In this document: in pieces, positions 6,954 through 59,902 of the stretch
How positions within the stretch are numbered: the first letter of the stretch is position 1
Layout of the letters: every line of letters starts with the position of its first letter
Origin: Frankia sp. AgB32
GTDB lineage: Bacteria; Actinomycetota; Actinomycetes; Frankiales; Frankiaceae
Direction: 5' to 3'
Length of the DNA stretch: 64,000 bases
Assembly (NCBI RefSeq): GCF_023243045.1
Contig: NZ_JALKFX010000029.1
Location: 1-64,000 of the forward strand
Translations under genes and position numbers: made by a program
The notes under the pieces: generated by a model
Database searches by the model: none
Told to the model about the DNA's origin: nothing
What the model saw: only the letters and a program-made list of their open reading frames with translations

Positions 6954-7922
6954 ATGCGGTCACGGCCGTGCTGGCGGCTGGTCGTCGCGGCGCTGGTCGC
7001 GGCGGTCCTGGCAGCCGGCTGTGGGTCCGGCGGTGGCGGGGGCGCGCGGCCCACGGCGGCGGCCGGGCCGACCGGCGCCCAGTCGCAGCCGGTGGTGGGC
7101 ACGCCACCGGACTCCGGGTCCTCTCGGGTGACCGGCGGTCGGTACGTGGCGATGGGCAGTTCCTTCGCCGCCGGACCGGGTATCGGCCGCGACATCGGGG
7201 CTGGTTGCGGCCGCTCGGCCCGCAACTACCCGCATCTGGTGGCACAGCGGCTCGGGTTCGCGCTCACGGACGTGACGTGCAGCGGTGCCACGACCACGAA
7301 CCTGCTTACGACTCCGCAGCGGGGGCATCCACCGCAGGTCGACGCCGTCACCCCCGACACCCGGCTGGTGACCATCACGGTGGGCGGCAACGATCTGGGC
7401 TACTCCGCCGCGACGGCGGAGTGCGCGGGCGCGACGGCCGCGGGCCGGTCCTGCGCTGCCCTGCTCCCGAGCCCGGCGGCGACCGCTGCGGCGGCGGTCA
7501 GGCTGCGCGGCAATCTCACCCGGCTGCTGCGGGCCATCGACACCGCCGCGCCCGGCGTGCTGGTCTACCTGGTCAGCTACCCGCGGATCTTCCCGGACCC
7601 GCCGGTCACCTGCCCGGACAACGTCATCAGTACCGCCGACACCCGCACGCTCGCCGGGATGGGCGGCACGCTGGAACAGACCCTCCGGCAGGTCGCGACG
7701 GAGCGGGGCATCCCGCTGGTCGACGCGTACGCTGCGAGCGCCGGGCGGGACGTGTGCGCCGCCGCGAACGTCCGCTGGGTGGAGGGCTCCCACACCAGCG
7801 GCGTGCACTACCACCCGAACGCCGACGGCATGGCCGCGGTCAGCCGGCTGATCGAGAACGCCCTGGCCGGCGCCGGGCGGATCGAGCACCGCACGCCGCA
7901 GGCGACCGCGACGCGCGGCTAG
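6954..7922 (+). CDS. SGNH/GDSL-family esterase lipoprotein
   Basis: 322 residues from ATG 6954 with GGGAGGGG upstream. A lipoprotein signal ends in LAAGC (C23), so the mature enzyme should be lipid-anchored outside the membrane. SGNH blocks are visible: block I as AMGSSFAAGPG (nucleophile Ser near 68, with Ser in place of the usual Asp in GDS), block III as VGGNDLGYS (Gly-Asn-Asp, near 145), and block V as YHPNADGM with the catalytic His near 287. Secreted SGNH hydrolases of this layout cleave acyl esters of lipids or glycans; the substrate is unknown. The gene is bracketed by the 75-bp repeats. Confidence 0.85.
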   Translation: MRSRPCWRLVVAALVAAVLAAGCGSGGGGGARPTAAAGPTGAQSQPVVGTPPDSGSSRVTGGRYVAMGSSFAAGPGIGRDIGAGCGRSARNYPHLVAQRLGFALTDVTCSGATTTNLLTTPQRGHPPQVDAVTPDTRLVTITVGGNDLGYSAATAECAGATAAGRSCAALLPSPAATAAAAVRLRGNLTRLLRAIDTAAPGVLVYLVSYPRIFPDPPVTCPDNVISTADTRTLAGMGGTLEQTLRQVATERGIPLVDAYAASAGRDVCAAANVRWVEGSHTSGVHYHPNADGMAAVSRLIENALAGAGRIEHRTPQATATRG

Positions 7923-7994
7923 GTCGGGTCCGGCCGATCATGGTGAGGGCATCCCGACACCGACCCCGGCACAGCGACCGGTCGGCAGCGCAGC
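7920..7994 (+). repeat. 75-bp direct repeat, copy 2
   Basis: Second copy of the repeat at 6449-6523. It starts on the TAG stop of the esterase gene and runs downstream. Confidence 0.75.
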
Positions 7995-8105
7995 GGGCCC
8001 GTCGCGCGGGCACACCGGGCACCGAGCCCCATCGGGCACCGGTCAGAAGCGCGCCCGGTCCCGCCGAGGGGCAGCCAGACCCTTGATCGCTACTCCCCGC
8101 AGCGA

Positions 8106-8133
8106 GGCTGAGGGGCTGAGGGGCTGAGGGGCT
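8106..8133 (+). repeat. 8-bp tandem repeat
   Basis: GGCTGAGG repeated three and a half times, about 100 bp upstream of the SnoaL-like fragment. This is simple slippage-type sequence with no evident role. Confidence 0.8.
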
Positions 8134-8233
8134 TTGTGGTCGCTTGGTATAGACAAAACGGGCGCCGAACCATGCAGAACGACAACCGTGGTCCCTCTGA
8201 ACCGCGGCGGCCCCTGACGAACGGAGACGCACG

Positions 8234-8392
8234 GTGAGCGAGCGGCATGACCGGGACGAGATCGCCGACGTCCTGTTGCGTTACACCGTCGGCATCGACC
8301 GCCGGGACTGGAAGCTGTTCCGTACCTGTTTCACCGACCACTGCACCATCGACTATGGCGACTTCGGGGCGTGGCAGGGCGCGGATGCCTTC
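8234..8392 (+). pseudogene. SnoaL-like/NTF2-fold protein, N-terminal fragment
   Basis: Begins at GTG 8234 behind GGAGACGCAC. The first 53 residues are a typical SnoaL-like N-terminus: EIADVLLRYTVGIDRRDW, LFRTCFTDHCTIDYGDFG, then WQGADAF. Full-length relatives are about 130-150 residues. From about 8393 the similarity stops because the sequence is the 3' end of the oppositely oriented acetyltransferase gene. The fragment looks truncated by a rearrangement whose break is at or next to that gene's stop codon. Confidence 0.7.
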
Positions 8393-9218: not shown

Positions 9219-12179
9219 TCAATGGCAGGTCGCCCGGTAGGGCACCCCGGGCAGGTAGTACCGCCAGGACGACGCGTCCAGACCAACCTTGGCCATCCCG
9301 CACGCATAGGCGATGACCCGGCCCTGGCGAAACGCGTCGACCGCGGCGAGCCGCCACAGCCGGATCGTCCCGTCATAGCCGCCCGAGGCCAGCAGCGCGC
9401 CGTCTGGGGAAAAGGCTACGGACAGCACGGACCGGGTGTGCCCCGCCAGCGGTTGCCCGATCGCGCGCAGGACACCCGGCGACGCCGAGCCCGCGCCGCC
9501 ACCGGTCGAGGCGGCCGGAAGGTCGGCGGCGGCGGTGCTCCACAGATGCACCCCGGGGCCGGAGTCGACGCTGGCGAGCAGGGTGCCGTCGGGCGAGAAG
9601 GCCAGGGCCCGGGTCGCGCCGGTGTCGGTGCCGGCCCGGGCGAGGATGCGCCGACCCCCCACCCCGTCGACCGTCGCCACCTCGATCTGGCCGTCCTCGC
9701 TCCCGCCGGTGCCTGCCTCGCCCGCCTCGTCGGCGTCGGTTCCACCGGCCGCGCCGGCAGGTTCGTCGCCGGACCCGGCGATGCCGCGGCCATCCGCCTC
9801 GATCAGGGCCGTCGGAGACCGGGCGAGGCGCGGGTCGGGTGGCGCGGAGCCACCGGTGGGCGGACCGGGCCGCCGGGGCCGGGCCGGGTCGGTCAGGTCC
9901 CAGACCAGCGCGATGCCGTCCGCGGTGGTGACGGTCAACTGCCGGTGGCCGAGGGCGAACGTCACCGACGTCGCCGGGCCCGGCAGACCTTGCAGCGGCC
10001 GCCCGACCGGGACGAGCTGGGCGTTGCGGATCGACCACAGCGTCACCGACTGGTCCGCGCCGCCGGCGCCGAGCAGGGTCCCGTCCGGCGCGAAGCCGAT
10101 CGCGGTGACCGGGGCGCCGGGGCTGGCGAAACCCGTCGGGTCGGCCGCGAGGCTCTGTAGCAGGCCCTCCTCACCCACGGTGCCCGGCGAGACGGTCGCG
10201 GCGGCGATACCCAACCGCAGCGCCCGGTCGCGGTCGGTGGGGCGGGCGTCGCGCGCGGCGGCCAGCAGAGACTGGGCGACCGCCGCCAGCCGGGCCTGGT
10301 CGGCGGCCCGCTGGGCGCGCTGTGCCGACCGGTTCTGCACGCCGGCGATCGTCGCGGCGGCGACGGCCACGGCAAGCAGCAGGGACAGCACGGTGACGGT
10401 CTGGCGTCGACGCCGACGCGCGCGGCGGGCGAGGCCGTCCACGTGCTGGTGGCATTCGGCGAGGAACTGCCGGCCGGCCCGGTTGAGGTTGACGACCGGT
10501 TCGCCGCCCGCCCGGAACCGGTCGTAGGACCCCCACAGGATGGTGGTCGCGGCGGTGAGCCGGTCGACGTCCCACAGCGGGCCGCCGCGGGCGTGCAGGG
10601 CGGCGGCGCGTTCCACCTGCCCCTCGGTGAGCAGTGCGGCCTCCCGCTCGCGGATCGCCGAGTCCAGCGGCTGCCAGGCGGTCAGCAACGCCTCGTGCAC
10701 GACGCCGACGGAGGTGCCGCCCAGGCTGTCGCTGGGCGTGGACAGCAGCCGTTCCTCGACGAACACCCCGAACGCGGTGCGCAGCGCGTCGGAGGACAGT
10801 TCCTCGAAGTCGATGCGGCGCCGCGTGCGCCGGCCTGCCTCGTCGAGGGTGGCAAGCTCCGCCATGCTGGCCAGGAGCACCTCCCGGGACAGGCCGGCGG
10901 CGGTGACCGCGTCGTCGAGCACCGCGTCGGCCCGCCGGGCGAGCGCGCCGCGCACCCCGCCGAGCTCCTCGTAGCGCACGGTGGACAGCCGTCCGCCGCG
11001 GACTTGGCCGCGGGCCAGTTCGTGCAGGGTGAACGCCAGCAGCGGCAGCGCCTCGCCGCCCTCGGTCTCCTCGACCATCCGGCTGACCAGCTCCGGGTCG
11101 ACCGACAGCCCGGCGACCCGGGCCGGCTCACTGATCACCACCCGGAGCATGTCCCGCGCGAGCGGACGCAGCGGGAACGCGTGCAGATGGACGTCCCCCA
11201 GCTCGGGCACCGCGAACAGCTGGTCCTGGAACTCCGAGCGGACAGCGATGACCACGCGGATCGGCCCGTCGAGCCCGCGGGAGAGCACGGCGGCGAACCG
11301 GGACCGCTCCGGTGACGGCGTTCTGGTGAACAGCTCCTCGCCCTGGTCGACGACGAGCAGCAGCCGGTCCCGCACCGGACCGGGCGCGGCGGCGAGCAGC
11401 TCCTCCGCGAGCGTGGCCAGCGCGCCGGGCTCGTCCCGCAGCCGCCGGTGGATCTCGTCGGCCGCCCAGCGCACGCCGGCGAGCTGCGCGGCCTTCGCCA
11501 GCGCCAGGGCGAGTTTGCGCAGCGGGTCGCGGCCCGGCACGAACGGTTCGGCCACCAGCCAGCCGGGCTCACCGCCGAGCCGCGCGGCCAGCCCGGCGCC
11601 GACCAGGGAGGACTTCCCACAGCCCGAACCGCCGACGACGAGCAGTAGCCGCCGGTCGCTGAGCGCGCGCAACCGGTGGGTCAGCCGGCGCAGCTCGTCG
11701 TCGCGGCCGTAGAAGACGCGGGCCATGTCCCGGCTGAACGGCCGCAGGCCCGGGAAGGGCGAGCGGTCCCAGGCCCAGCCGCGCCCGCCGGACGCGTCGA
11801 CGCGCCGCAGTGCGACGTCCAGGTCCTCGCCCCAGCCGCCGTTGCCGGCGACGATGACGTGCTGGCGATCGTCCAGCAACGGGGAGGTGACCTCCGGCTG
11901 CGCCCGCAGCGGCAGCAGCAGACTGCCGACCTCGTGGGCGATCCCGATCTCGTAGGCGCACCACGGCGAGGCGTTGTACGCGTCGGTCAGGAGGCAGATG
12001 ACCGCGTCGGCGGCGCGCAGTTCCTGGTGCAGGCGTTCCCGCCAGACGTCACCGGGCTGGATTCCAGCCCGGATGTTCCTGGCCAGGAATGCGTCGTGGC
12101 CCAGGTCGGACAGCGTTCGGTGGACGCGGTCGGCCAGCTCCCCGTCGGAGCTGGCGTGACTGACGAAGGCCCGGGCCAC
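9219..12179 (-). CDS. TIR-STAND NTPase-WD40 protein (candidate immune/NLR-like sensor)
   Basis: 986 residues from GTG 12179 with GGGGGAGGTGAC just upstream. Residues 1-125 are a TIR domain (AFVSHASSDGELADRV, then SPWCAYEIGIAHEVG with the W..E pattern in which the Glu is the NADase catalytic residue of active TIRs). From about 143 (FPGLRPFSRD, FYGRDDEL) a STAND ATPase begins: Walker A GGSGCGKSS near 185 and Walker B LLLVVDQGEELF near 278. A single hydrophobic segment at about 593-615 precedes an Arg-rich linker. The C-terminus (about 690-960) has WD40 strands with LASGGYDGTIRLW and similar repeats, but only about four to five clear ones. It is monocistronic. TIR-STAND proteins are known or predicted anti-phage effectors; that role here is inference. 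Confidence 0.9.
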   Translation of the reverse strand: MARAFVSHASSDGELADRVHRTLSDLGHDAFLARNIRAGIQPGDVWRERLHQELRAADAVICLLTDAYNASPWCAYEIGIAHEVGSLLLPLRAQPEVTSPLLDDRQHVIVAGNGGWGEDLDVALRRVDASGGRGWAWDRSPFPGLRPFSRDMARVFYGRDDELRRLTHRLRALSDRRLLLVVGGSGCGKSSLVGAGLAARLGGEPGWLVAEPFVPGRDPLRKLALALAKAAQLAGVRWAADEIHRRLRDEPGALATLAEELLAAAPGPVRDRLLLVVDQGEELFTRTPSPERSRFAAVLSRGLDGPIRVVIAVRSEFQDQLFAVPELGDVHLHAFPLRPLARDMLRVVISEPARVAGLSVDPELVSRMVEETEGGEALPLLAFTLHELARGQVRGGRLSTVRYEELGGVRGALARRADAVLDDAVTAAGLSREVLLASMAELATLDEAGRRTRRRIDFEELSSDALRTAFGVFVEERLLSTPSDSLGGTSVGVVHEALLTAWQPLDSAIREREAALLTEGQVERAAALHARGGPLWDVDRLTAATTILWGSYDRFRAGGEPVVNLNRAGRQFLAECHQHVDGLARRARRRRRQTVTVLSLLLAVAVAAATIAGVQNRSAQRAQRAADQARLAAVAQSLLAAARDARPTDRDRALRLGIAAATVSPGTVGEEGLLQSLAADPTGFASPGAPVTAIGFAPDGTLLGAGGADQSVTLWSIRNAQLVPVGRPLQGLPGPATSVTFALGHRQLTVTTADGIALVWDLTDPARPRRPGPPTGGSAPPDPRLARSPTALIEADGRGIAGSGDEPAGAAGGTDADEAGEAGTGGSEDGQIEVATVDGVGGRRILARAGTDTGATRALAFSPDGTLLASVDSGPGVHLWSTAAADLPAASTGGGAGSASPGVLRAIGQPLAGHTRSVLSVAFSPDGALLASGGYDGTIRLWRLAAVDAFRQGRVIAYACGMAKVGLDASSWRYYLPGVPYRATCH

Positions 12180-18066: not shown

Positions 18067-18115
18067 GGCTGCCGGTGCGGACCAGTCCCCGATGCGCGTT
18101 CCCACGCGGCGGTGG
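18067..18115. repeat. 49-bp terminal direct repeat, left copy
   Basis: Identical over all 49 positions to 54618-54666. It lies inside the C-terminal coding part of the gene starting at 18408. It marks the left end of the 36,551-bp circularly closed element. Confidence 0.9.
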
Positions 18116-25534: not shown

Positions 25535-27199
25535 TCATGACCGTGCCCCCACCAGATCGGTGGAGCCGTCTACCGAGACAGCCGGCTCCACCGAGACGAC
25601 GGCGGTATCCGACACCGCGGCAGTGGCGTCCCGCTCCCCCGACCCGACCGGGCCCACCTCGTCCTCGCGCACCGCAGGTGCGTCCGGGACCGGCTGCGCC
25701 GCAGCGGCGTCCCGGGCCCGGGCACGGGCGGCGTCCAACGCCTCCCGCGCCGTCCCGGCCGGCTGTGTCTCGCTGTCGCGCAGGGCCCGCAGCACCGTGC
25801 GGCCGTAGTCGCGGGTCCCGAACTTCCGATCAAGATCGGCGCCGGTCGGCGTGCGGCCCGCGGCCCGCTGCTCCAGCACCCAGGCGGTCATCTCCGCCCG
25901 CCGCGACGACGTCCCGCGAGACGTCCCGGCCGAGCGAGACACCACAGGAGACGTCTCGTCCCGCGCGGGCACCGTCTCGTCCCGCCCGGTGCGGGACACC
26001 GCGGTTCGAGACACCGCGGTTCGAGACACCGACCGAGACGTCTCGCTCTGACCGGACGTCTCGCCGAGCGCGGTTCGAGACACCGCGGACCGAGACGTCT
26101 CGGAACCAGCCGGGACAGCAGGACGAGACGACTGGCGAGAAACCGCGGCCGTCTCGTCCGCCGCCACCGGTGCCAGATCCGGCGCCTCGAACGTCTCCCC
26201 GGACACCGCGGCAGGCAGCACCGCGGTATCCGCGGGCAGCGCGGTATCCACGGCCGGCCGGGTACCCGCAGGCAGCGCCAGGTCGACGCGGCCCGCGGCC
26301 GGCAGCGCCGCGGTTTCCGGCTGCGCTACCGCGGCGGGCAGCGCGGTCTGCGCCGCGGGGACGCCCAGGGTGTGCAGCACCCGGGTGATGTCCGGGTCGG
26401 TCGCGGCCAGCACCTGCTGGCGCCATGCCCGCAGCTCCGGCACAGGAGACAACCCGACCCGCAGGGCCCGCAGCCGCGGCGCGGCCATCCCGCTGCGACC
26501 CGGCGTGTAGACCAGTTCCGCGCTGCCGTCACCCGCGAGATCCACCGCCGCGCGGCGGATCGCCACACGGCGAGCCTTGACCAGCTTGCGGTGCGCGAGC
26601 TGGTCGAGTCGGCGCTGCGCACGTTCGGCCCGCGACACCCGGGGTTTGGCGATGGCGATCTGGTGCGCGATCACACCAGCGACCGAGACGATCGCCATCA
26701 TGATCCCGCGGGTAGCTCCATGGCCGTCCGCGCTGCCGTGCAAGTAGTTCATGACGGCGCCGACGCTGGCGAACACGAAGATGCCCATGGTGTAGCGAGA
26801 CGTCGGCCGGTCGGGATAATGCTTCTCGGTGTGGGCCACCGCGGCCGCGAACGCCCACATGCCAAGCTCGGAGATCACGGGCAGGCCGTAGCCGGTGGCG
26901 TTCCCGTAGATCTGCTTGCCGTAGTGAGCCATCGCGGGAATCGAGATGACCCCGCAGACCACAGCCATCGGATAGACCATCAGGTCCACCGAGTGCTCAG
27001 CCCGCCACGCCTCCCGCTTCTCCCGGGCCTCGCCCCGGGCATCGTCCCGCTCCTGCTTGCGCTCCTTGCGCAGGTTCTCCCGCCGGGCCTCCCGGGCGTC
27101 GGTCAGGTCCGCCTGCAGCCGCAGCGCCCTCTCGCGGACCTCCGCCTGGATACGCAGCTGCGACGCCCGGTCCTCGCGGCGCTCCTCCGCCCAACTCAC
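25535..27199 (-). CDS. DUF2637-like (SpdB-type) membrane protein with long variable linker
   Basis: 554 residues from GTG 27199, which overlaps the stop of the gene before it (GTGA). Residues 1-70 are a charged coiled coil (WAEERREDRASQLRIQAE, RKERKQERDDAR). Four membrane helices follow between about 78 and 190 (VYPMAVVCGVISIPAMAHYG, ISELGMWAFAAAVAHT, MGIFVFASVGAVMNYLHG, MAIVSVAGVIAHQIAI), which is the DUF2637 pattern of actinobacterial plasmid spread proteins. A long Ala/Pro/Thr/Ser linker with repeated SRTAVSRT units leads to a C-terminal helix-turn-helix-like stretch (MTAWVLEQRAAGRTPTGADL). It is probably involved in intramycelial spread. Confidence 0.75.
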   Translation of the reverse strand: MSWAEERREDRASQLRIQAEVRERALRLQADLTDAREARRENLRKERKQERDDARGEAREKREAWRAEHSVDLMVYPMAVVCGVISIPAMAHYGKQIYGNATGYGLPVISELGMWAFAAAVAHTEKHYPDRPTSRYTMGIFVFASVGAVMNYLHGSADGHGATRGIMMAIVSVAGVIAHQIAIAKPRVSRAERAQRRLDQLAHRKLVKARRVAIRRAAVDLAGDGSAELVYTPGRSGMAAPRLRALRVGLSPVPELRAWRQQVLAATDPDITRVLHTLGVPAAQTALPAAVAQPETAALPAAGRVDLALPAGTRPAVDTALPADTAVLPAAVSGETFEAPDLAPVAADETAAVSRQSSRPAVPAGSETSRSAVSRTALGETSGQSETSRSVSRTAVSRTAVSRTGRDETVPARDETSPVVSRSAGTSRGTSSRRAEMTAWVLEQRAAGRTPTGADLDRKFGTRDYGRTVLRALRDSETQPAGTAREALDAARARARDAAAAQPVPDAPAVREDEVGPVGSGERDATAAVSDTAVVSVEPAVSVDGSTDLVGARS

Positions 27200-27996
27200 G
27201 ACAGCCACCCCCCGCCCAGCGCGATCACCGCGCCGGCGAGCAGGACCGTCACCGCGCTGTCCTGCACGCCCTGCCAGACACGGACCCACCAGCGGCGCGG
27301 CGCGTCCTCAGATGGGTCCAGGACGTAGCAGGCGACGGCGCTGACCTCGCGGGCCAGCAGCGCGGCCGCGCCCAGCGCCAGCACGATCCGCGGCGGGCTC
27401 ACCGCCATCACCAGGTCCAGCAGCCCGCCATGCAGCCGGCCCGTGCCGACCACCGGCACCCCCGCACCGACCAGCGCCGCCAGCGCCAGCGCCCACCCGG
27501 CGATGGCACCCGTCCAGTCCACGACCAGCGCCACCCAGCGCCGCCAGGCCGCGACCGGCACGGTCGGCGCGGGATGGTGGGTGGCCGTCAGCCGCCAGCC
27601 GCAATGCCACGACTCGGGCGCGCACCGGTCCGATGTCCACCGCCACACCACGCGCCGCTCGTCCAACCACACCGCGGCCTCGTTCAGGACGCGGCCGTGC
27701 AGGTGCGTGGTGTCCGCGGGGTCCTCGGCCTCACCACCGGTGGTGGTCAGCGTCGCGGCCAGACCACCGCCGGCCGCCGGCTCCACCACAAGACGGGCCG
27801 TCAACCCATCCCACAGCTCCCCGGCCACCTCCACCGAGGTGATCTCCGCGCTATCCGGCGCGAGCCGCGGCGGCACCGCCTGGTCCAGCCCGCCCGCCTG
27901 GGCGAGCTCGACCAGCAGCGCCCACGCATCCACGGATCCGCCGGTGATCTCGATCCGGGTCGTCTCCACCGCGACGTCCGTCGGGGCGGTCATCAC
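27196..27996 (-). CDS. Membrane protein of the transfer operon
   Basis: 266 residues from ATG 27996. The N-terminal half is soluble and Thr/Ala/Glu-rich with a beta-strand look (TRIEITGGSVDAWALLVELA). The C-terminal half has three to four membrane helices (WTGAIAGWALALAALVGAGV, IVLALGAAALLAREVSAVA, AVTVLLAGAVIALGGGWL). It is coupled by short overlaps to the WhiB gene upstream and the DUF2637-like gene downstream. Membrane subunit of the spread/transfer apparatus by context; no family recognised. Confidence 0.7.
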   Translation of the reverse strand: MMTAPTDVAVETTRIEITGGSVDAWALLVELAQAGGLDQAVPPRLAPDSAEITSVEVAGELWDGLTARLVVEPAAGGGLAATLTTTGGEAEDPADTTHLHGRVLNEAAVWLDERRVVWRWTSDRCAPESWHCGWRLTATHHPAPTVPVAAWRRWVALVVDWTGAIAGWALALAALVGAGVPVVGTGRLHGGLLDLVMAVSPPRIVLALGAAALLAREVSAVACYVLDPSEDAPRRWWVRVWQGVQDSAVTVLLAGAVIALGGGWLS

Positions 27997-41295: not shown

Positions 41296-41508
41296 TCAGC
41301 CAGAGGGACGCCGGCAGGTCGCCAAGTATCGGTCCACGTCGCCAGCGCTGACGTACACCCGCCGGCCGACCAGCCAACTCTGGATCGTCCGCGACTCCGT
41401 CAACCGCCGTGCCATCCTCGCGGTGATCGCCGGCCAGCGGGCCGGCACCGCAGTGCGGGCCACCAGGTCGCCCGGGACCTCGCCCGGTGCAGGCTGCTCG
41501 GTCGTCAT
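41296..41508 (-). CDS. Small excisionase-like HTH protein
   Basis: 70 residues from ATG 41508. The sequence RMARRLTESRTIQSWLVGRR followed by VYVSAGDVDRYLATC is the helix-turn-helix plus wing of DNA-binding excisionase-type proteins. It overlaps the upstream XRE gene by four bases. Confidence 0.65.
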   Translation of the reverse strand: MTTEQPAPGEVPGDLVARTAVPARWPAITARMARRLTESRTIQSWLVGRRVYVSAGDVDRYLATCRRPSG

Positions 41509-42077
41509 CGGTCGAGTCCTCTCGTTATCTCGTCCGCCTGGTCGAGTAGCTGCCCGGCACGCTCCATCTCGGCGAGGGTCGCCCGCCGACGGTTCATGAT
41601 CCGTACCGCCTGGTCGGTCAGGGCCTGCGCGGCCAGCCGGGCCTCCAGCTCCCGCCGCTGGGCGGCGGTCAGCCGCTGCGCCCGGATCCGCTCGGCGCGA
41701 CGCGCGCGACGTCGGGCCCGGCGCCGGCGGCGGATCGACCGCTCGGTGTCCACCCGGGCGCTGTCGCCCGCGAGGGCCAGCAGCTCGCCGGCGACCCGGT
41801 CGGCCTCGGCGGGGGCCAGGACCTCGGCGAGGTGGGTCAGGGTCAGCGGCCGGGGCCGGCGCCGGCCGTCCTCGAGGTCACGCAGGTACCGGCGGGACAC
41901 CCCGGACCGGGCCGCCACCATCCGCGTGGACAGGCCGGCCGCGGCCCGCAGCCGCCGCAGCTCCGCGCCCACACCGTCGCGCAGGAACTCGACCTCGGCA
42001 CCGGTGGGCGGGCCAGGCCATCCGTCCGGGCCGGTGGGCGCCGTCGCGCGCACGCGGACGGCGTCGCGACTAGTCAC
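41505..42077 (-). CDS. XRE-family HTH regulator with basic helical tail
   Basis: 190 residues from GTG 42077. The HTH lies near 40-95: GAELRRLRAAAGLSTRMVAA, RSGVSRRYLRDLEDGRRRPR, LTLTHLAEVLAPAEADRV. The tail is an Arg-rich helix (RRRRRARRRARRAERIRAQR), perhaps for DNA or RNA contact. Directly upstream of its start lies the 42094-42504 repeat array, so it may bind that array. It is coupled to the small excisionase-like gene. Confidence 0.75.
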   Translation of the reverse strand: MTSRDAVRVRATAPTGPDGWPGPPTGAEVEFLRDGVGAELRRLRAAAGLSTRMVAARSGVSRRYLRDLEDGRRRPRPLTLTHLAEVLAPAEADRVAGELLALAGDSARVDTERSIRRRRRARRRARRAERIRAQRLTAAQRRELEARLAAQALTDQAVRIMNRRRATLAEMERAGQLLDQADEITRGLDR

Positions 42078-42093
42078 AGCACCCCGCCCGCCT

Positions 42094-42504
42094 GGGCGCC
42101 AACACCCGCGCACGACCAGCCGGAAGGTCCGGACCTTCCGCGCGTCCGGTCACCGCGGGCAGATGGGCGCCAACCCGCGGGCGTGAGGACGCGATGAGTC
42201 CGAACTCTCGGCCGGTCGCACCGGGTGGGCGCCAACCCGCGCGCAGGAGCGGGCCGACGTTCCGGAACAGCCGCGCGTCCGGTCGCGGCAGTGGACGGTC
42301 TGGACCGTTCGCCCGCTGGCCGGGCGCCAACACCTGCACGCGGGCGTTTCTGCTCGTGAACGTTCGTGTGCGCGCTGCCGGGGCGCCCACACGGGTGCGC
42401 GCGTCGTGCGTCCGGTCGCAGGTACCGGGACACGGTCGCGCCGGAGTGGGCGCCAACGCCTGCGTGCGCGCTCGGGAGGTGGGCAACGTTGCGTCCGGTC
42501 GCGG
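42094..42504. repeat. Six-unit composite repeat array (unclassified)
   Basis: GGGCGCCAAC, or one-change GGGCGCCCAC, starts units at 42094, 42165, 42227, 42322, 42381 and 42448, usually followed by a G/C-rich GCG tail. Between units lie palindromes of changing sequence: CGGAAGGTCCGGACCTTCCG (42121-42140), GTTCCGGAAC (42259-42268), GAACGTTC (42358-42365), GCAACGTTGC (42483-42492), and looser ones near 42197 and 42294. A second conserved word, CGTCCGGTCGC or close, follows at 42142, 42209, 42274, 42409 and 42491. Units are 59-95 bp. No gene fits. Candidate roles: transfer (clt) site, replication origin or multi-operator. Confidence 0.75.
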
Positions 42505-42849
42505 TCATCGGAGCTGGGCCCGGTCGTCGTCCGCGGCGGCCAGGCGCCGGCGCAGGTCGGCCAGGGCACCGCGCGTGCCGGCCTGGACGGCATACACCTC
42601 GGCGCTGTCGAGGCCGTCGAGGATCATGTCCGGGCCGGTCCCGGTCTGCGTGCGGGGCAGGCACCACAGCGCGGCGAGGCGGTCCCCGCGTACGGCCAGC
42701 ACGGTGGGCAGACCGGGGGCCTCCCCGCGGTCGCGGCCGGTGCCGTGCTGCCGGTAGGGGGTCCAGCCGTCCCGGCGCAGGGTGTCCATGACCGTGGAGG
42801 ACCAGAGAATGTGGTCGGCTTCGGCCTGCAGCTGGTCGGCGCGGGTCAT
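42505..42849 (-). CDS. Hypothetical protein of the element
   Basis: 114 residues from ATG 42849, first of the leftward genes ending at the repeat array. It has an alternating strand/helix look (MTRADQLQAEADHILWSSTV, LPTVLAVRGDRLAALWCLPR, AEVYAVQAGTRGALADLRRR). The ATG overlaps the gene before it by four bases (GTGA/ATGA pattern). No family recognised. Confidence 0.6.
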   Translation of the reverse strand: MTRADQLQAEADHILWSSTVMDTLRRDGWTPYRQHGTGRDRGEAPGLPTVLAVRGDRLAALWCLPRTQTGTGPDMILDGLDSAEVYAVQAGTRGALADLRRRLAAADDDRAQLR

Positions 42850-43894: not shown

Positions 43895-44010
43895 TGCGGG
43901 GTTTGCGGCGGACCGTTGCGGGGTTACTGCGGGGTTTGACTGGAGGGATCGCCGCGCGCTTTTCCGCAGGTCAGACGGGCTGCTTGCGGGGTCTGCGGGG
44001 TTTGCGGGGT
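43895..44010. repeat. TGCGGGGT iteron cluster, part 1
   Basis: Six copies of TGCGGGGT on the plus strand at 43895, 43917, 43928, 43985, 43994 and 44003, some head to tail at 9-bp spacing (43985/43994/44003). Matching copies in the second cluster lie at 44399-44500. Short iterons near a primase gene suggest a replication origin. Confidence 0.75.
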
Positions 44011-44050
44011 TGGTTTTTCACTCGCGGCTCTATAGGTGATGGCGGACCCC

Positions 44051-44341
44051 TCAGCGGTGGGCCGCCCCGTTGTCGCCGGGTGGGGTCCAGGCGGCGCCGA
44101 GGCTGTCGTACCGCTGGCCGGGTTCGCGGTCTTCTTCCCAGGGGGCGGCGGCGACGTCGCGGTTGTAGTGGCGGATCCCGGCGTCCTGGCGGGCCGCGTG
44201 CAGCAGGCTTTCCGGGGTGGGTTCGCGGGTGGCGCCGGCGGTCTTGCGGGGCGCGTCGCAGGGCTGGCCGGGGTCGGCCTTGCAGGTGGGGCAGCGGTGC
44301 GCCACGGCGTAGGCGTGTAGCGGCGGCCAGGGGATGGTCAT
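44051..44341 (-). CDS. Small zinc-binding protein between iteron clusters
   Basis: 96 residues from ATG 44341. HRCPTCKADPGQPC near 15-28 is a four-Cys/His knuckle of the type found in small phage and plasmid proteins. The rest is hydrophilic. It is flanked on both sides by TGCGGGGT repeats, so it could be an origin-linked accessory; this is position-based inference. Confidence 0.65.
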   Translation of the reverse strand: MTIPWPPLHAYAVAHRCPTCKADPGQPCDAPRKTAGATREPTPESLLHAARQDAGIRHYNRDVAAAPWEEDREPGQRYDSLGAAWTPPGDNGAAHR

Positions 44342-44398
44342 GCGGTCTGACTCCTTCGTGGTCGTATGGCCTTGTCGTCACGTGCGAGGAGGAAAACG

Positions 44399-44500
44399 AC
44401 CCCGCAAACCCCGCAAACCCCGCAGAGACCTTGTCTGACCTGCCGTTTTAATGGTTGATCTTTGCGGGGTTTGCGGGTTTTGAAGGGGTGGCTGCGGGGT
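44399..44500. repeat. TGCGGGGT iteron cluster, part 2, with inverted repeat
   Basis: Copies on the minus strand at 44399, 44408 and 44417 and on the plus strand at 44463 and 44493 (44472 is imperfect). Together 44401-44417 and 44461-44477 form a perfect 17-bp inverted repeat around a 43-bp AT-richer centre. It lies 6 bp after the primase gene end. Confidence 0.75.
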
Positions 44501-44505
44501 TTGGT

Positions 44506-46911
44506 TCAGGGGCTGGGCATCAGGTCGATCCGCCAGGTGGCGATCTTTTTGTGGGGGTCTTCGCCGCGGCGCAGGACGTACGGGCCGTGGAACCGGCCGA
44601 CCTGGCCGCGCAGCATCCGACCGAGGGACTTCGCGGTGGGCGTGCCGCCGCGGTCGTCGGCGAGGAAACAGCCCTCCCACCGGTCGATCGCCCGGCCCTT
44701 CGCGTCGACGTCGTAGTCGGCGGAGGCGCGGAGCTGGGCGGCGGTCTTCGGCTTGTCGCCGAACTGGCGGTGCCACTGGCCGAAGAACACCTCCCACTCG
44801 CTGTCCTCGTCGTCCAGCGCCCGGACCTCGGCGACGTTGCCGAGAAAGCCGCCGATGTGGTGGTGGGCGAGCAGTCCGCCGACGGCCTGGGCCCAGGGGG
44901 TGAACTGGCGCATGGTGTGCTCGGCGCGGGGCGCGCCGGCGGCGATCCAGTCCATGACCAGGATCAGCAGGTGGCGCAGCACGGTCCGCTGGTTGGCCGG
45001 ATCTTTGATCCACAGGTCCAGGTCGGGGATGACGAACCCGGTGCGTTCCTCGGGATGGGGCATCCCGGGGTCCAGGCGGACCAGAACGGAGCGGGTGGCC
45101 ATGTCCCCACCCAGGCGCAGGTTGTTGCCGGTCGCCAACCACAGCCGGTCGTTGGCCGCGCTCACGGTGATGTTGGTGCCGAGACGCCGGTCGGACCAGG
45201 TCGGGCTGGTGAGCAGCTGAGCGAGGACCGGGGCATCGACCGCGGTGCCTTCCCGCAGGTTGTCGAAGATGAGGACCGGGGCGGTCTCGCCCAGCGCCGC
45301 GGTAATCGCCTTGCGCATCTCGGCTTCGGCGTCGGGCCACGTCAGGGTCCGCTGCCCGTAGAGCAGGCCGATGCCCTCGGCGAGGATCGTCTTCCCGGAT
45401 GCCTGCGTCGTCGCGGTGATCATCCCGAACGGGGTCACGGTGCGGACGTAGGGACGCAGGATGTTCGTCACCAGCAGGCCGAGGTAGTTCGCCCGGTCGG
45501 CGTCGGTCACCCAGGGGAACCCGGCGAGGAAGTCGCCGAGCAGGAACCGGCGGGCCGTGTCGACTTCGCCGCGGGCCGGGCGCGACGGCACCCGGGGGAT
45601 CTCAACCTTCGGTGCGTAGAACAGGCCGGTCTCGGTGTCGTAGCCAGCCGTCTGTATCAAGGTGCCGTTCGGGCGCAGCACCGGCGAACCGACGATGCCG
45701 AGCAGCGGGCGCACCCCGGGCCAGTACCGGCCGGAGAGCACCGCGGCGAGGACCCGCGGCGCCGGCACCGTCTCCTCCTCGACCGTCACGGTCGCACCAG
45801 AGTCGCCGCGGCCTTTCCGGGTGCGGGTCCGGTAGACGTAGGCGTGGCAGGCCAGCGTCCGCGCCAGACCTGGCGGAGTGAGCACGCCCGGGGCGTAGGG
45901 CAACGGCGGTGGCTCCGCCAGGCCGAGCGGCGTGCCGATGTCCCCGGACACCCGCTGCAGGTGCACGACCTCGCCGTTGGTCACGTACAGGTCAGGCAGG
46001 GCGTTGCCCTCGATCGCCGCCCGCAACGTCCGGATGGAGGCGGCCTCCGTCGAGATCTCGATACGCGGCATGCCTGCGGTATCAACCGGCGGCGCGGCGG
46101 CGGGCGCCTGGCCCTCGCCGGCGACGAGGGGACGCAGCTCGTCGAGATCGTGGCCGGCGTTGAGATGGTCGGAGACGTCCTTACCGGTGGCCGCCAGCCA
46201 CACCGACACCGTCCCCACCACCGGGCGCAGGGCGGCCGCGACCACGGCGGCGTGCGCGCGCCCCGGCTCGTCGTCGTCGGCCACGATCCGAACGTCCGCC
46301 GCGCCGGTGAGGCTGGCCGTATGGCCCGACAGCCACTTGCCGGTGCCCTTGCTCGCACCCCCCGGGTTACAGGTGGCGACGTGCCCCAGGGACCGGACCC
46401 GGCCGGCGTCCTTCTCGCCCTCGACGACGTAGATGGGCGTGCCGGTCCGCACGGCCTCGACGACGTCGGGCAGCCGGTAGAGCACCCGACGGACGTCGCC
46501 GAGTTTCCACGCCCAGCCGCGCGGCTTACTCGGGTCCGGCCGCCGTTGGCGGAACTGCTTGTTCGCCGTGCGGCAGACCTGGAACAGCAGGACGCCCTGC
46601 TCGTCGTGGTAGTCGTACACGGCCACCGCGGGCCCGGCCGGCGTCCACTCGCCGGCGGTGTCCGTGGTGGCCGTGGTGGGCGCCAGGTCCTCGGGGCGTA
46701 GACCGACCGCGGCGACGATGTCCTCGTACGAACACCCGACATGGCACTTCAGGAGCGGCCGGACGCCGTCGCGGCCGACGCGGACCGACAGCGACGGGTT
46801 GCGGTCCTCGTGCGCGGGGCAGCGCACCGACTGGTCGCCGCGCCGGGCAGCGTCGAGCCTCCGGCCGAGGCCGAGCGCGTTGTACCCGTCGGCGAACCGC
46901 TCCAGTGGCAT
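44506..46911 (-). CDS. Primase-helicase replication protein (CHC2, Toprim, ATPase)
   Basis: 801 residues from ATG 46911 (start uncertain; no strong ribosome site; the frame is open upstream). N-terminus: a CHC2-type zinc finger, VRCPAHEDRNPSLSVRVG and LLKCHVGCSYEDIV. Then a Toprim-like region near 165-225 (IYVVEGEKDAGRVRSLGH, VRIVADDDEPGRAHA). The C-terminal half is a DUF927/superfamily 3-like ATPase: Walker A TTQASGKTILAEG near 505, Walker B VLIFDNL near 547. The layout fits the replication protein of integrative elements and satellites. With the iterons on its 3' side it is a strong candidate replication initiator. Confidence 0.82.
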   Translation of the reverse strand: MPLERFADGYNALGLGRRLDAARRGDQSVRCPAHEDRNPSLSVRVGRDGVRPLLKCHVGCSYEDIVAAVGLRPEDLAPTTATTDTAGEWTPAGPAVAVYDYHDEQGVLLFQVCRTANKQFRQRRPDPSKPRGWAWKLGDVRRVLYRLPDVVEAVRTGTPIYVVEGEKDAGRVRSLGHVATCNPGGASKGTGKWLSGHTASLTGAADVRIVADDDEPGRAHAAVVAAALRPVVGTVSVWLAATGKDVSDHLNAGHDLDELRPLVAGEGQAPAAAPPVDTAGMPRIEISTEAASIRTLRAAIEGNALPDLYVTNGEVVHLQRVSGDIGTPLGLAEPPPLPYAPGVLTPPGLARTLACHAYVYRTRTRKGRGDSGATVTVEEETVPAPRVLAAVLSGRYWPGVRPLLGIVGSPVLRPNGTLIQTAGYDTETGLFYAPKVEIPRVPSRPARGEVDTARRFLLGDFLAGFPWVTDADRANYLGLLVTNILRPYVRTVTPFGMITATTQASGKTILAEGIGLLYGQRTLTWPDAEAEMRKAITAALGETAPVLIFDNLREGTAVDAPVLAQLLTSPTWSDRRLGTNITVSAANDRLWLATGNNLRLGGDMATRSVLVRLDPGMPHPEERTGFVIPDLDLWIKDPANQRTVLRHLLILVMDWIAAGAPRAEHTMRQFTPWAQAVGGLLAHHHIGGFLGNVAEVRALDDEDSEWEVFFGQWHRQFGDKPKTAAQLRASADYDVDAKGRAIDRWEGCFLADDRGGTPTAKSLGRMLRGQVGRFHGPYVLRRGEDPHKKIATWRIDLMPSP

Positions 46912-47021
46912 CGCAGCGGCAACCGGTACCGTCGTTGTCGTTATCGGGGCCTTCGTAGGGGGGGCAGGATGGTGGCGTCGGCCGGGGGTGCAACCCCGGC
47001 CGTTCGCATGGAGAGGGACGC

Positions 47022-54617: not shown

Positions 54618-54666
54618 GGCTGCCGGTGCGGACCAGTCCCCGATGCGCGTTCCCACGCGGCGGTGG
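54618..54666. repeat. 49-bp terminal direct repeat, right copy
   Basis: Identical to 18067-18115. Right end of the 36,551-bp closed element unit. Confidence 0.9.
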
Positions 54667-57070: not shown

Positions 57071-58132
57071 TCAGCCGTCGGCGTTCGTCTCGTCCTGAAC
57101 GGCTGCGGGGGACATGACCGAGACGATGCGCTCCAGATCCTCGATCGACGCGAACTCGACGGTGATCTTCCCCTTGTTCTGGCCCATGTCGACCTTCACC
57201 CGGGTCTCGAAGCGATCCGACAGGTGGTCGGCGAAACGAGCGAGAACCGGCGAGGCCGCCCGCGGTCCCCGCGGCGCTCGCCTGCGGGGCACATCCTCGT
57301 CCAGCGCGACGATCTCCTCGACGGCACGTACCGACAGGCCCTCCGCGACGATGCGAGTGGCAAGCCGGTCCTGCGCCTCGGGATCACGCAGTGACAGCAG
57401 CGCGCGGGCGTGCCCCGCCGAGAGCACGCCGGCCGCGACCCGACGCTGCACGGCGGGGGACAGCCCAAGCAGCCGGATCGTGTTGGTGACGTGCGAGCGG
57501 GACCGGCCCAGGCGGCCCGCGAGTTCCTCGTGGGTCGCGCCGAAGTCCCGCAGGAGCTGCTCGTACGCCGCCGCCTCCTCCAGCGGGTTGAGCTGCTGGC
57601 GGTGCAGATTCTCCAGCAGGGCATCGCGCAGCATCGCGTCGTCCGCCGTCTCCCGGACGATCGCGGGAATCACGGTGAGTCCGGCGACCTGCGACGCCCG
57701 CCAGCGCCGCTCGCCCATGACGAGTTCGTACCGGTCCTGGGCCACCGACCGGACGATGACGGGTTGGAGCAGGCCGACCTCGCGCAGGCTCGCGGCCAGC
57801 TCCTCCAGGGCGTCCTCGTCGAAGTGCGTCCTGGGCTGGCGCGCGTTGGGGACGATGTTCTCGACCGGAATCGCGCGGAAGTAGGCGCCGTGCACCGGCA
57901 GCGGCCCGGTACTCGCGCGCTCGCCGGCATCCGGGCCGCGACGGCCGCTGCCGTGTTCGGCGTAGTCCCCGTCGTCGTAGTCCCGGTGGTCCGGGTCCCG
58001 GTAGTCGTAGCCCCCCTGGCCGGCACGACTGCCAGCACCCGTACGAGTGCCGTCGCGCTCCTCACCCGGCGGCGGCGCGACCGGGATGAGCGCGCCGAGC
58101 CCGCGTCCCAGCCCGCTGCGCCGGGCGCTCAC
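57071..58132 (-). CDS. parB: Chromosome partitioning protein ParB
   Basis: 353 residues from ATG 58132, overlapping the parA end by four bases. An Arg/Gly/Asp-rich N-terminal extension is followed by [20 protein letters not shown] near 88, the CTP-binding and nuclease-like core with [14 protein letters not shown], then an HTH ([20 protein letters not shown] near 210) and a C-terminal dimerisation domain ending in [20 protein letters not shown]. ParB binds parS (sites at 56239 and 59083), spreads as a CTP clamp and loads SMC; this is established for the family. Confidence 0.95.
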
Positions 58133-59181
58133 CGCGGCGCTCCGTTCGGCTCCCAGCCGCGCTCGGCGAGCTCCCGCGCCGCCGCCAGGTAGGACAGCGA
58201 CCCGCGGGAGGTCGGATCGTAGGTCAGGGCCGACTGGCCGTAGCTCGGCGCCTCCGCCAGCCGGACGTTGCGGGGGATCGTGGTGCCGAGGACCCGCTCG
58301 CCGAAGTGCTCCTTGACCTCCTGCACCACCTGATCAGCCAGCCTGGTCCGCGAGTCGTACATGGTCAGCAGAATCGTCGACAGGCGCAGCTCCTGGTTCA
58401 GGTGGGCCTGCACCAGTTCCACGTTGCGCAGCAGCATCCCCACGCCCTCCAGCGCGTAGTACTCGCACTGGATGGGGATGAGCAGCTCCCGCGCCGCGAC
58501 CAGGGCGTTGACGGTCAGCAGCCCCAGCGACGGCGGGCAGTCGATGAAGACGTAGTCGACCTCCCGCTGCATGCTGGCGATCGCGCGCCGCAGCCGGTTC
58601 TCCCGGGCGACGAGCGAGACGAGTTCGATCTCCGCGCCGGCGAGGTCGATCGTCGCGGGCGCGCAGAACAGTGACGGCGCCTCGCCCGACTCGACGATGA
58701 CCTCGTCCAGCGGGCGGTCCCCCAGCAGCACCTCGTAGATCGAGGGGATGCCGCTGTGATGCTCGACCCCCAGCGCGGTCGACGCGTTGCCCTGCGGGTC
58801 GAGGTCAATCACCAGTACCCGCACGCCATGCGAGGCCAGGGCCGCAGCGAGGTTGACCGTGGTCGTCGTCTTGCCGACGCCACCCTTCTGATTGGCGACG
58901 GAGATGATGCGTCGCCGGGTGGGACGAGGGAATGGTTGTCGTCGTTCTGCCGCCAAGGCTTCCACTGCTGCTGCCGCCGCCGCTCCGATCGGGGTCGACC
59001 GGTCGAGGGGATCCAGAGCGGGGATCGCGGACTCGTGGCCCCGAGTGCCCCCACCGGCGGATCCATCCCGACCCGTCAACGCTGTTTCACGTGGAACGAG
59101 ACTGTCCACGCGTCGGCTGGTCACGGCCAACCTCCCGTGATCGCCGTGAGTCCCACGCCGTTCGTCTGGCCTGTCTGTCAT
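58129..59181 (-). CDS. parA: Chromosome partitioning ATPase ParA
   Basis: 350 residues from ATG 59181; a GTG at about 59124 is a possible shorter start. The ParA ATPase begins near 95: [20 protein letters not shown], then [18 protein letters not shown] and [18 protein letters not shown]. The 90-residue N-terminal extension is poorly conserved and contains the second parS in its coding DNA. The gene overlaps the rsmG end by about 95 bp if ATG 59181 is used. It is operonic with parB. Confidence 0.93.
59083..59098. promoter_or_regulatory. Chromosomal parS site 2 (inside parA/rsmG overlap)
   Basis: TGTTTCACGTGGAACG, one change from the palindromic parS consensus. On the opposite strand it encodes part of ParA LVPRETAL. 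Confidence 0.8.
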
Positions 59182-59902
59182 CGTGCCGCTCACCGTCGCC
59201 GCGCCCTTTCCCCTTCTCGGCCCGGGAAGGCTGGGAGGAACGCACGGCGCGAAGGACGCGGGTGGGTTCCGCCACCCGGCCCTCTCCGCACACCACGACA
59301 TCCACCGGATGCCAGCCCTGGGTTCCGAGACTGCCGCGCGCGTCCTGCAACTCCTCCAGGATCCGCGAACCGCGCATCGCCAGCATGACACCACCCGGTT
59401 GCAACATCGGAAGGAGGATTGCGCCCAACCGCTCAAGCGGGGCGACCGCACGTGCCACGGCTACCCCGAATCTACGACTGTCCGGGCCGATTCCGGCATC
59501 CGGCGCGCGGCCACGCCGAACGGAAACCCGGTCCGCCAGTCGCAGTTCAGCGACGACCTCCTGGAGAAACCGGCACCGTCGCTCCATGGGTTCAAGCAGT
59601 TCCACCCGCACGTCCGAGCGGGCGAGCGCGAGCGGAATGCCGGGCAGGCCGGCGCCGCTGCCCACGTCAACGGCGTCGGCATCCGCCGGGACGGCCTCCG
59701 CGAGCACCGCGCAGTTGAGCACGTGACGCTCCCAGAGTCGCTCGGTCTCGCGCGGGCCGATCAGCCCACGCTCGACCCCGGCGGTCGCGAGGAGTTCGGT
59801 GAAACGGATGGCATCGGCGAGCCTCGGACCAAACAGCTCCGCGGCCGCCGGCGGAGCGGGCGGCACCGCCCCCGCCCGGGGGGTCTGATCCGCGTCGGTC
59901 AT
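59087..59902 (-). CDS. rsmG: 16S rRNA (guanine-N7) methyltransferase RsmG
   Basis: 271 residues from ATG 59902. RsmG hallmarks: [20 protein letters not shown] near 50, SAM motif [20 protein letters not shown] near 80, [20 protein letters not shown] near 105, and [13 protein letters not shown] near 150. The C-terminus has a 50-residue Arg/Asp/Lys-rich extension not usual in the family, part of which overlaps parA. RsmG methylates G527 of 16S rRNA; the place next to parA is conserved in actinobacteria. Confidence 0.93.

Follow-up and report, generated by a model that had tools for sequence, protein, structure and literature searches.

A composite repeat array at the start of an XRE regulator gene in an apparent TraB-type integrative element: a possible amplified control site

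The window, by which we mean the whole 64-kb stretch of DNA that was analysed (GC content 72%), appears to have a TraB-type integrative element on board. An exact 49-bp direct repeat is present at 18067-18115 and again at 54618-54666, and these two copies are likely the attL and attR sites of a 36.6-kb element. Between the repeats lie genes for a TraB-like protein (its NF041214 match, at 2.3e-16, scores well under the curated cut-off), a DUF2637 protein, a ParA-like protein, a tyrosine integrase and an XRE-family regulator, together with a replication gene of the primase/helicase type. The integrase gene is located far from both ends of the element. DNA from about 54792 onward was matched in all four same-genus genomes tested, and the left flank gave short matches only, in three of the four; the element adjoins genes that look like chromosomal parA/parB (57071-59451). 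The repeat array of interest (42094-42502) occupies the 427-bp gap between the stop codon of p114 at 42505 and the start of XRE at 42077, which agrees with the original prediction of an array between an XRE regulator start and a run of small genes. The p114 and XRE genes, as well as the neighbouring SprT-like and excisionase-like genes, are all encoded on the minus strand, and no relative of p114 was found among 295 other genomes or in plasmids. A phage-like island of the same genus (G011, L157 9785-18416) has SprT-like, excisionase-like and p40785 genes in common with the element; at E 1e-3 XRE was not matched in this island, which also lacks the main array word.

The array is built from six copies of a 10-bp word (word A, GGGCGCCAAC), five of them exact and one with a single mismatch, and the successive spacings of 71, 62, 95, 59 and 67 bp bear out the six near-identical words at 59-95 bp described originally. 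Exact copies of word A are confined to the array within the 64 kb. When up to one mismatch was allowed, 19 matches were obtained in the window, 13 of them outside the array, against a shuffle mean of 16.1; order-3 Markov simulations of the window (10 runs) produced no 10-mer that occurs five times within 600 bp. A second word (word B, GTCCGGTCGC), also foreseen for most units, is exact in units 3, 5 and 6, carries one mismatch in units 1 and 2 and is missing from unit 4, and GACCGGACGC, read on the other strand, has four exact copies. In an ungapped alignment of the six units on word A, the ten word-A columns have a mean majority of 5.9/6, columns 12, 15 and 21 are invariant, columns 17, 18 and 23 reach 5/6, and columns 13-34 average 3.6 as compared with 3.2 for random columns. 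Because the spacings are not multiples of three, the units do not have a common reading frame, and a tandem coding repeat was rejected on this ground. The statement that no open frame uses the array holds for a frame common to the units, but stop-free frames do exist across it. In a CRISPR array, repeats of about 24-40 bp are near-identical and the spacers between them are even in length. A CRISPR array was rejected given constant words of 10 bp and spacings of 59-95 bp, the best CRISPR-DR Rfam score being 18 against a gathering score of 35. An integron attC site, judged by eye against its core, was set aside as well.

Table 1 Positions of the array units and of the adjoining genes and repeats in the window
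Feature	Position	Strand	Description
XRE-family regulator (HTH_31)	41505..42077	-	190 aa; start taken as GTG 42077; Pfam HTH_31 2.8e-11
Probable unit 0	42036..42075	+	word GGGCGCCGTC 42036-42045; palindrome GACTAGTC 42068-42075
Unit 1	42094..42153	+	word A 42094-42103; palindrome CGGAAGGTCCGGACCTTCCG 42121-42140; word B GTCCGGTCAC 42144-42153
Unit 2	42165..42219	+	word A 42165-42174; imperfect palindrome GAGTCCGAACTC 42196-42207; word B GGCCGGTCGC 42210-42219
Unit 3	42227..42286	+	word A 42227-42236; palindrome GTTCCGGAAC 42259-42268; word B 42277-42286
Unit 4	42322..42380	+	word A 42322-42331; palindrome GAACGTTC 42358-42365; without word B
Unit 5	42381..42419	+	degenerate word A GGGCGCCCAC 42381-42390; without in-register palindrome; word B 42410-42419
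Unit 6	42448..42502	+	word A 42448-42457; palindrome GCAACGTTGC 42483-42492; word B 42493-42502
Iteron set CAAACCCCGCA	43895..44503		11 sites with up to two mismatches; directly 3' of replication gene
Primase/helicase-type replication protein	44506..46929	-	ORF open to 47211; PHROG 19930 DNA polymerase/primase 8.5e-72

Analysis of the segments between the words demonstrated perfect in-register palindromes in units 1 (20 bp), 3 (10 bp), 4 (8 bp) and 6 (10 bp), with one mismatched pair in unit 2 and no palindrome in register in unit 5, so the proposal that each word is followed by a strictly palindromic element applies to four of the six units. Counted from where word A starts, the palindrome is centred at 37.5 bases in units 1-3 and at 40.5 bases in units 4 and 6. 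An excess in the number of palindromes was not upheld against dinucleotide shuffles, the 20-bp palindrome being the exception (arm of at least 9: P 0.015). The arms differ among the units and yet remain complementary in 23 of 25 Watson-Crick cells, and among the 120 possible pairings of left with right arms the true one alone reaches that value, in a test whose centres had been chosen for being palindromic. What is unusual in the array is the register of the palindromes, together with arms that diverge while staying complementary.

The innermost palindrome pairs, which would form the loop of a hairpin, are kept as pairs, and the twelve folds of single units (six units, two strands) gave z scores from -0.83 to +1.61 against shuffles. 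Since the central pairs are kept and the unit folds are no better than those of shuffles, we regard the palindromes as dyads in double-stranded DNA and not as hairpins. We likewise rate it as highly improbable that the array represents short structured RNAs, one of the original suggestions, or a structured leader of the XRE mRNA. Folding of both strands did give this reading something, as the whole array folds somewhat better than its shuffles (z -1.9, with 4 of 100 shuffles as good, and z -2.3, with 2 of 100); the single units, however, do not, and Rfam gave no match at the gathering score in the window, the best sub-threshold match near the array having an E of 0.12.

A further site, absent from the original prediction, was detected inside the XRE gene (unit 0). 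Its word has two mismatches to word A and falls in XRE codons 11-14, on the same strand as the array and 58 bp from unit 1, while its 8-bp palindrome, centred 36.5 from the word, takes in the final base of the XRE start codon. A 24-bp matrix made from the six units and run over both window strands ranked 42036 seventh of 127,954 positions, first after the training sites, with a score of 13.7 as compared with 11.7 for the next site. With two other matrix lengths this site ranked eighth, second after the training sites, and with the 12-bp core matrix only 63rd of 127,978; its agreement with the matrix lies in the bases that follow GGGCGCCGTC. Judged by its sequence, 42036 is probably a seventh unit of the array. 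No other word-A site at the matrix level of unit 0 was found elsewhere in the element, which is unexpected if XRE controls genes other than its own.

The original prediction also offered an origin of replication, and an array of multiple direct repeats and palindromes near replication genes has the general look of one. The element, however, has a separate set of iterons directly 3' of its replication gene (Table 1), and these CAAACCCCGCA repeats are likely the replication origin and not part of the array. The replication protein has no Pfam match. Repeats in the corresponding place (a 9-mer present at least four times within 1.2 kb) were found in 11 of 12 relatives tested (L069-L073, L075-L077 and L079-L081), as compared with 29 of 300 random stretches, and the 11 are not independent because several are close in word sequence; L074 had no such 9-mer repeats 3' of its replication gene. 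The 12 were drawn from 20 fetched stretches, the others being L078 (match cut short), L088 (weak match) and L082-L087 (N-terminal matches only). Related iteron words of the relatives are CAAACCCCGC, CATCTCCGC, ACCCCCGCA, ACCCTCCGC, ACTACCCGC and AGTACCCGC. The window's own genome has a second replication gene of the same family (L075, contig C42, 2642-4553), with ACCCCCGCA iterons 3' of it. A protein of NC_013667.2, which we take to be pWTY27, is 39% identical over query residues 288-801. The plasmid pWTY27 is an experimentally studied replicon in which RepA binds iterons 3' of the replication gene (PMC3583192), the same iteron-origin layout that we find at 43895-44503 and in the relatives. 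The GGGCGCCAAC array differs from iterons of the pWTY27 type in its location, in its 59-95 bp spacing and in its words, and an origin or iteron region is an extremely improbable account of it.

The TraB recognition site (clt) was another function put forward, and the element does encode a TraB-like protein, with the weak family score given above. Word B contains GACCGGA, which is one base short of the TRS word of pSVH1, GACCCGGA. Regions of the clt type comprise direct and inverted repeats and, in pIJ101, lie close to korB (PMC3583192). The array resembles the clt of pIJ101, pJV1, pSVH1 and pWTY27 in being direct plus inverted repeats within a TraB-encoding element. Neither GACCCGGA nor the pJV1 clt word CCGCACA[CG][CG] (the latter from PMC3583192) has a copy in 42078-42504. 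Among other clt words, TGACACC is absent from the array and CCCGCCC occurs once. Clt words differ between plasmids, so these absences only weaken the clt reading. The array is also about 20 kb from traB and adjoins the XRE gene instead, and other word arrays are present in DUF2637 genes of transfer regions, both here and in another element (G001). The DUF2637 gene of the window (25535-27289), upstream of traB, contains an array of GTCTC/GAGAC with 22 of the window's 142 copies, and 10 of the 12 TCT codons of this gene fall within 74 codons, whereas TCT accounts for 8 of the 343 serine codons counted in 14 other genes. In the G001 element (L161 13825-15342), CGGACCGG occurs 13 times within 400 bp of the DUF2637 gene upstream of traB. 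These arrays suggest a constraint at the DNA level in a coding linker and are themselves candidates for clt (TraB) or stability sites. Taken with the published words missing from the array, they leave it very unlikely that the array serves as the recognition site of the TraB translocase.

Searches of plasmids, phages, related genomes, viral contigs and a genome collection returned no relative of the whole array. Plasmids and phages gave 44 and 51 records with short matches, with no array among the 20 of each that were listed. The best plasmid match listed, pXL100 of Amycolatopsis keratiniphila (65 bp, E 3e-3), was rejected as annotated coding sequence with no word A. Among 146 related genomes, 16 others gave short matches (E of at least 1e-5) and none had GGCGCCAAC more than once; in the window's own genome the composite pattern has three matches, all within the array. 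The 23 loci obtained from viral contigs have at most three GGCGCCAAC per strand and no array by their position list. A query of the genome collection with two neighbouring words yielded 41 stretches, nine of them with at least three clustered words; the letters of ten were read and 31 were judged from word positions alone. The many-copy stretches (e.g. L106, L109, L110, L114 and L132) were rejected as near-identical tandem repeats with a period of 15-58 bp, in which whole units are repeated, whereas the window array is constant in its words only. Three of them (L109, L114 and L132) have 51-56 bp near-identical tandem repeats with GGGCGCCAAC in three unrelated bacterial assemblies, and L114 also has inverted GGCGCC words in each repeat unit. 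Seven of the 41 matches (L107, L108, L119, L120, L124, L128 and L134) come from a single metagenome-assembled genome, Chthoniobacter sp. RYN_611, in which copies of a stretch of about 90 bp with two GGGCGCCAAC are dispersed; its letters were read in L119 alone, and it appears to have no connection with the array. Among the GGGCGCCAAC-containing papers listed in a literature search, none deals with this kind of element.

The product of the adjoining XRE gene matched six solved chains, the closest by sequence being ClgR (7.3e-6), with C.AhdI among them (E 0.0027). Relatives of the protein are rare. A match was found in 1 of 34 other genomes in the family sample and in 2 of 392 other genomes in the class sample (E <= 1e-8), one of the two being the same genome as in the family sample; with the L169 protein as query, XRE was found in 4 of 40 genomes of one genus, G240 included. 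The weaker matches in 14 of 396 genomes of the phylum sample (E <= 1e-6, own genome included) were judged to be generic HTH proteins, and no XRE relatives were found in viral contigs, plasmids or phages. Four relatives have a related word at the XRE 5' end (L169, L087, L172 and L167, with two words in L087), and three of these (L169, L087 and, as a weak case, L167) have a palindrome of 8-16 bp there as well. L069, a looser XRE relative, has neither a word nor a palindrome site at its XRE 5' end, and with the ungapped matrix no site was obtained near XRE in L169, L087 or L069. The palindrome is to be weighed against a base rate of 12.5% for 4-bp arms in random windows.

In G240, which belongs to another family of the same class (L168/L169; 34% identity to the window XRE), TGGGCGCCTAACGCGCGCACG lies in the 5' coding part of XRE in the same orientation relative to the gene. 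The similarity was noticed by eye before any scan and requires a one-base insertion. When one indel was allowed, this site was one of three scoring at least 17 in 1.26 Mb of fetched DNA, in a scan restricted to sites that begin with any of four tetramers; the DNA scanned included loci that had been fetched for word A, L145, another of the three top sites, being such a locus. A perfect 16-bp palindrome follows directly after the XRE ATG of L169 (an arm of at least 8 is found in 0.1% of random windows), and L171, a near-identical copy of L169, likewise has the word and a palindrome of at least 8 bp. The XRE copy of G770, with 96% protein identity to that of L169, retains 106 bp unchanged over start codon, palindrome and word, the longest identical run in the 1.4 kb compared (92% DNA identity). 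The TTA of the word in the L169 XRE gene (10344-11036) is the sole TTA among 285 leucine codons of the eight L169 genes counted. TTA codons need a rare leucyl tRNA (bldA), on which translation of the L169 XRE could depend.

The pair of words in G341 (L087) consists of GTTAGGCACC and GTTGAGCACC at a distance of 69 bp. A 12-bp palindrome precedes the first word, and none is in range of the second; the words are inside the XRE gene only if the open frame 7779-8327 is right. This locus shows an in-frame repetition of the XRE 5' segment, and the two pieces that tblastn matched to XRE fall in different frames, an apparent frameshift. In G761 (L172, a locus fetched later), GTTAGGCACC is found 60 bases after the XRE ATG and nowhere else in 2.5 kb, with a 6-bp palindrome only in range of the word. 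In G017 (L167, XRE 50% identical) the matrix site that ranks second in the locus falls at the 5' end of XRE, and a palindrome of 8 bp lies 36.5 bases from it. The pattern GTTRRGCRCC, written after the L169 and L087 sites had been seen, occurs 39 times in 1.33 Mb on both strands, those two sites included. The word is read as TTA-GGC in L169 and as GTT-AGG in L172 and L087. Because the frames differ, its likeness between L169 and the others is not explained by protein conservation, whereas protein homology may contribute for L087 and L172, in which the word is in the same frame (DVRHHS). The gene upstream of XRE on the same strand is of the primase/helicase type in the window and L087, whereas L169 and L172 have an AAA_25 ATPase and L167 an IstB-like ATPase, both of which may serve replication. 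The recurrence of related sites in distant XRE relatives suggests that the regulator or a partner docks there, and speaks for neither a replication start nor an RNA gene.

The resemblance of the units to the segment at the XRE 5' end, and the in-frame repetition of that segment in L087, would also be compatible with decaying, functionless tandem duplicates of the XRE 5' end. Such decay is, in our estimate, quite unlikely, as conservation is concentrated in word A (5.9/6, as compared with 3.6 in columns 13-34 and 3.2 at random) and the palindrome arms change yet stay complementary.

The explanation that we favour, tentatively and at somewhat less than an even chance, is that the array arose by amplification of a cis-site belonging to the XRE gene, probably the gene's own operator. 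Of the four readings in the original prediction, the best fit is the site for several binders, anchored on the XRE gene and with XRE itself as the predicted binder. The array would accordingly be double-stranded, protein-bound control DNA that belongs to the adjoining gene. An ancestral unit may have combined a palindrome near the XRE start codon with a GTTRGGCRCC-like word whose far end lies 36-48 bp further into the gene, and tandem amplification of this unit could have given the six copies in the 427-bp gap and the probable seventh inside the gene. Dimers of XRE are envisaged to bind dyads, which comprise the palindrome as well as word A, itself nearly palindromic (TGGGCGCCAA). Binding would begin with the ancestral site at the XRE start and extend cooperatively along the array. 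In this way XRE may repress or tune its own gene and the excision genes after it, and the amplified array would provide cooperative, dose-sensitive control of the gene block between replication and excision. We infer all three components of this scheme, namely XRE as the binder, the autoregulatory effect and the origin by duplication. Regulators of the XRE/Cro-C1 type (controller proteins, e.g. C.AhdI) have autoregulatory operators, usually of one to three similar sites. The array resembles these in that an HTH regulator has dyads at its own start, here in-register palindromes in five of the six units (one imperfect) plus the 8-bp palindrome over the start codon; it differs from them in its six or seven composite units, its extent of more than 450 bp, its variable dyads and its constant flanking words.

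The main rival is a site of maintenance or spread like the sps of SpdA, at which a complex would stabilise the element and not control transcription. It holds this position because SpdA2/sps is the closest known parallel in anatomy. In plasmids of the pIJ101 type, 12-bp palindromes are located within spdA or immediately upstream of it, and in one plasmid they cover the start codon; SpdA2 of pIJ101 binds them, and they have an effect on segregational stability (PMC4170104). Across spdA/spdA2 of pIJ101, pSVH1, pEN2701 and pJV1, palindromes are found in, over the start of, or upstream of a DNA-binding protein gene, as in the array, with a copy number that differs between elements (PMC4170104). 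The restriction of word A to one place in the element is likewise as expected for a cis-site and not for a regulon. An sps, however, is one conserved 12-bp palindrome, with SRDD/E codons in a spdA gene, whereas the array combines variable palindromes with two constant flanking words; the predicted binder in the window is an XRE protein of the HTH_31 type, and the element has a ParA-like gene of its own. A stability role is therefore considered unlikely, albeit less so than the decay, clt, RNA and origin readings.

Returning to the amplified control site, a wider proposal, of which we are more doubtful, is that some XRE regulators of actinobacterial mobile elements form a class with a composite cis-element in its own coding sequence. 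This element may be kept as DNA across reading frames and amplified into an array with the role of a nucleoprotein switch or of a maintenance site. If the narrower reading is right, it would name the control site of a regulator whose gene, in a TraB-type integrative element, is flanked by those for replication and excision, would provide a directly testable protein-DNA pair, and would represent an in-gene operator expanded to an array in which the dyads have diverged but kept their symmetry. Should another protein bind there, the array is set apart from the likely iteron origin, and the map of the element is corrected.
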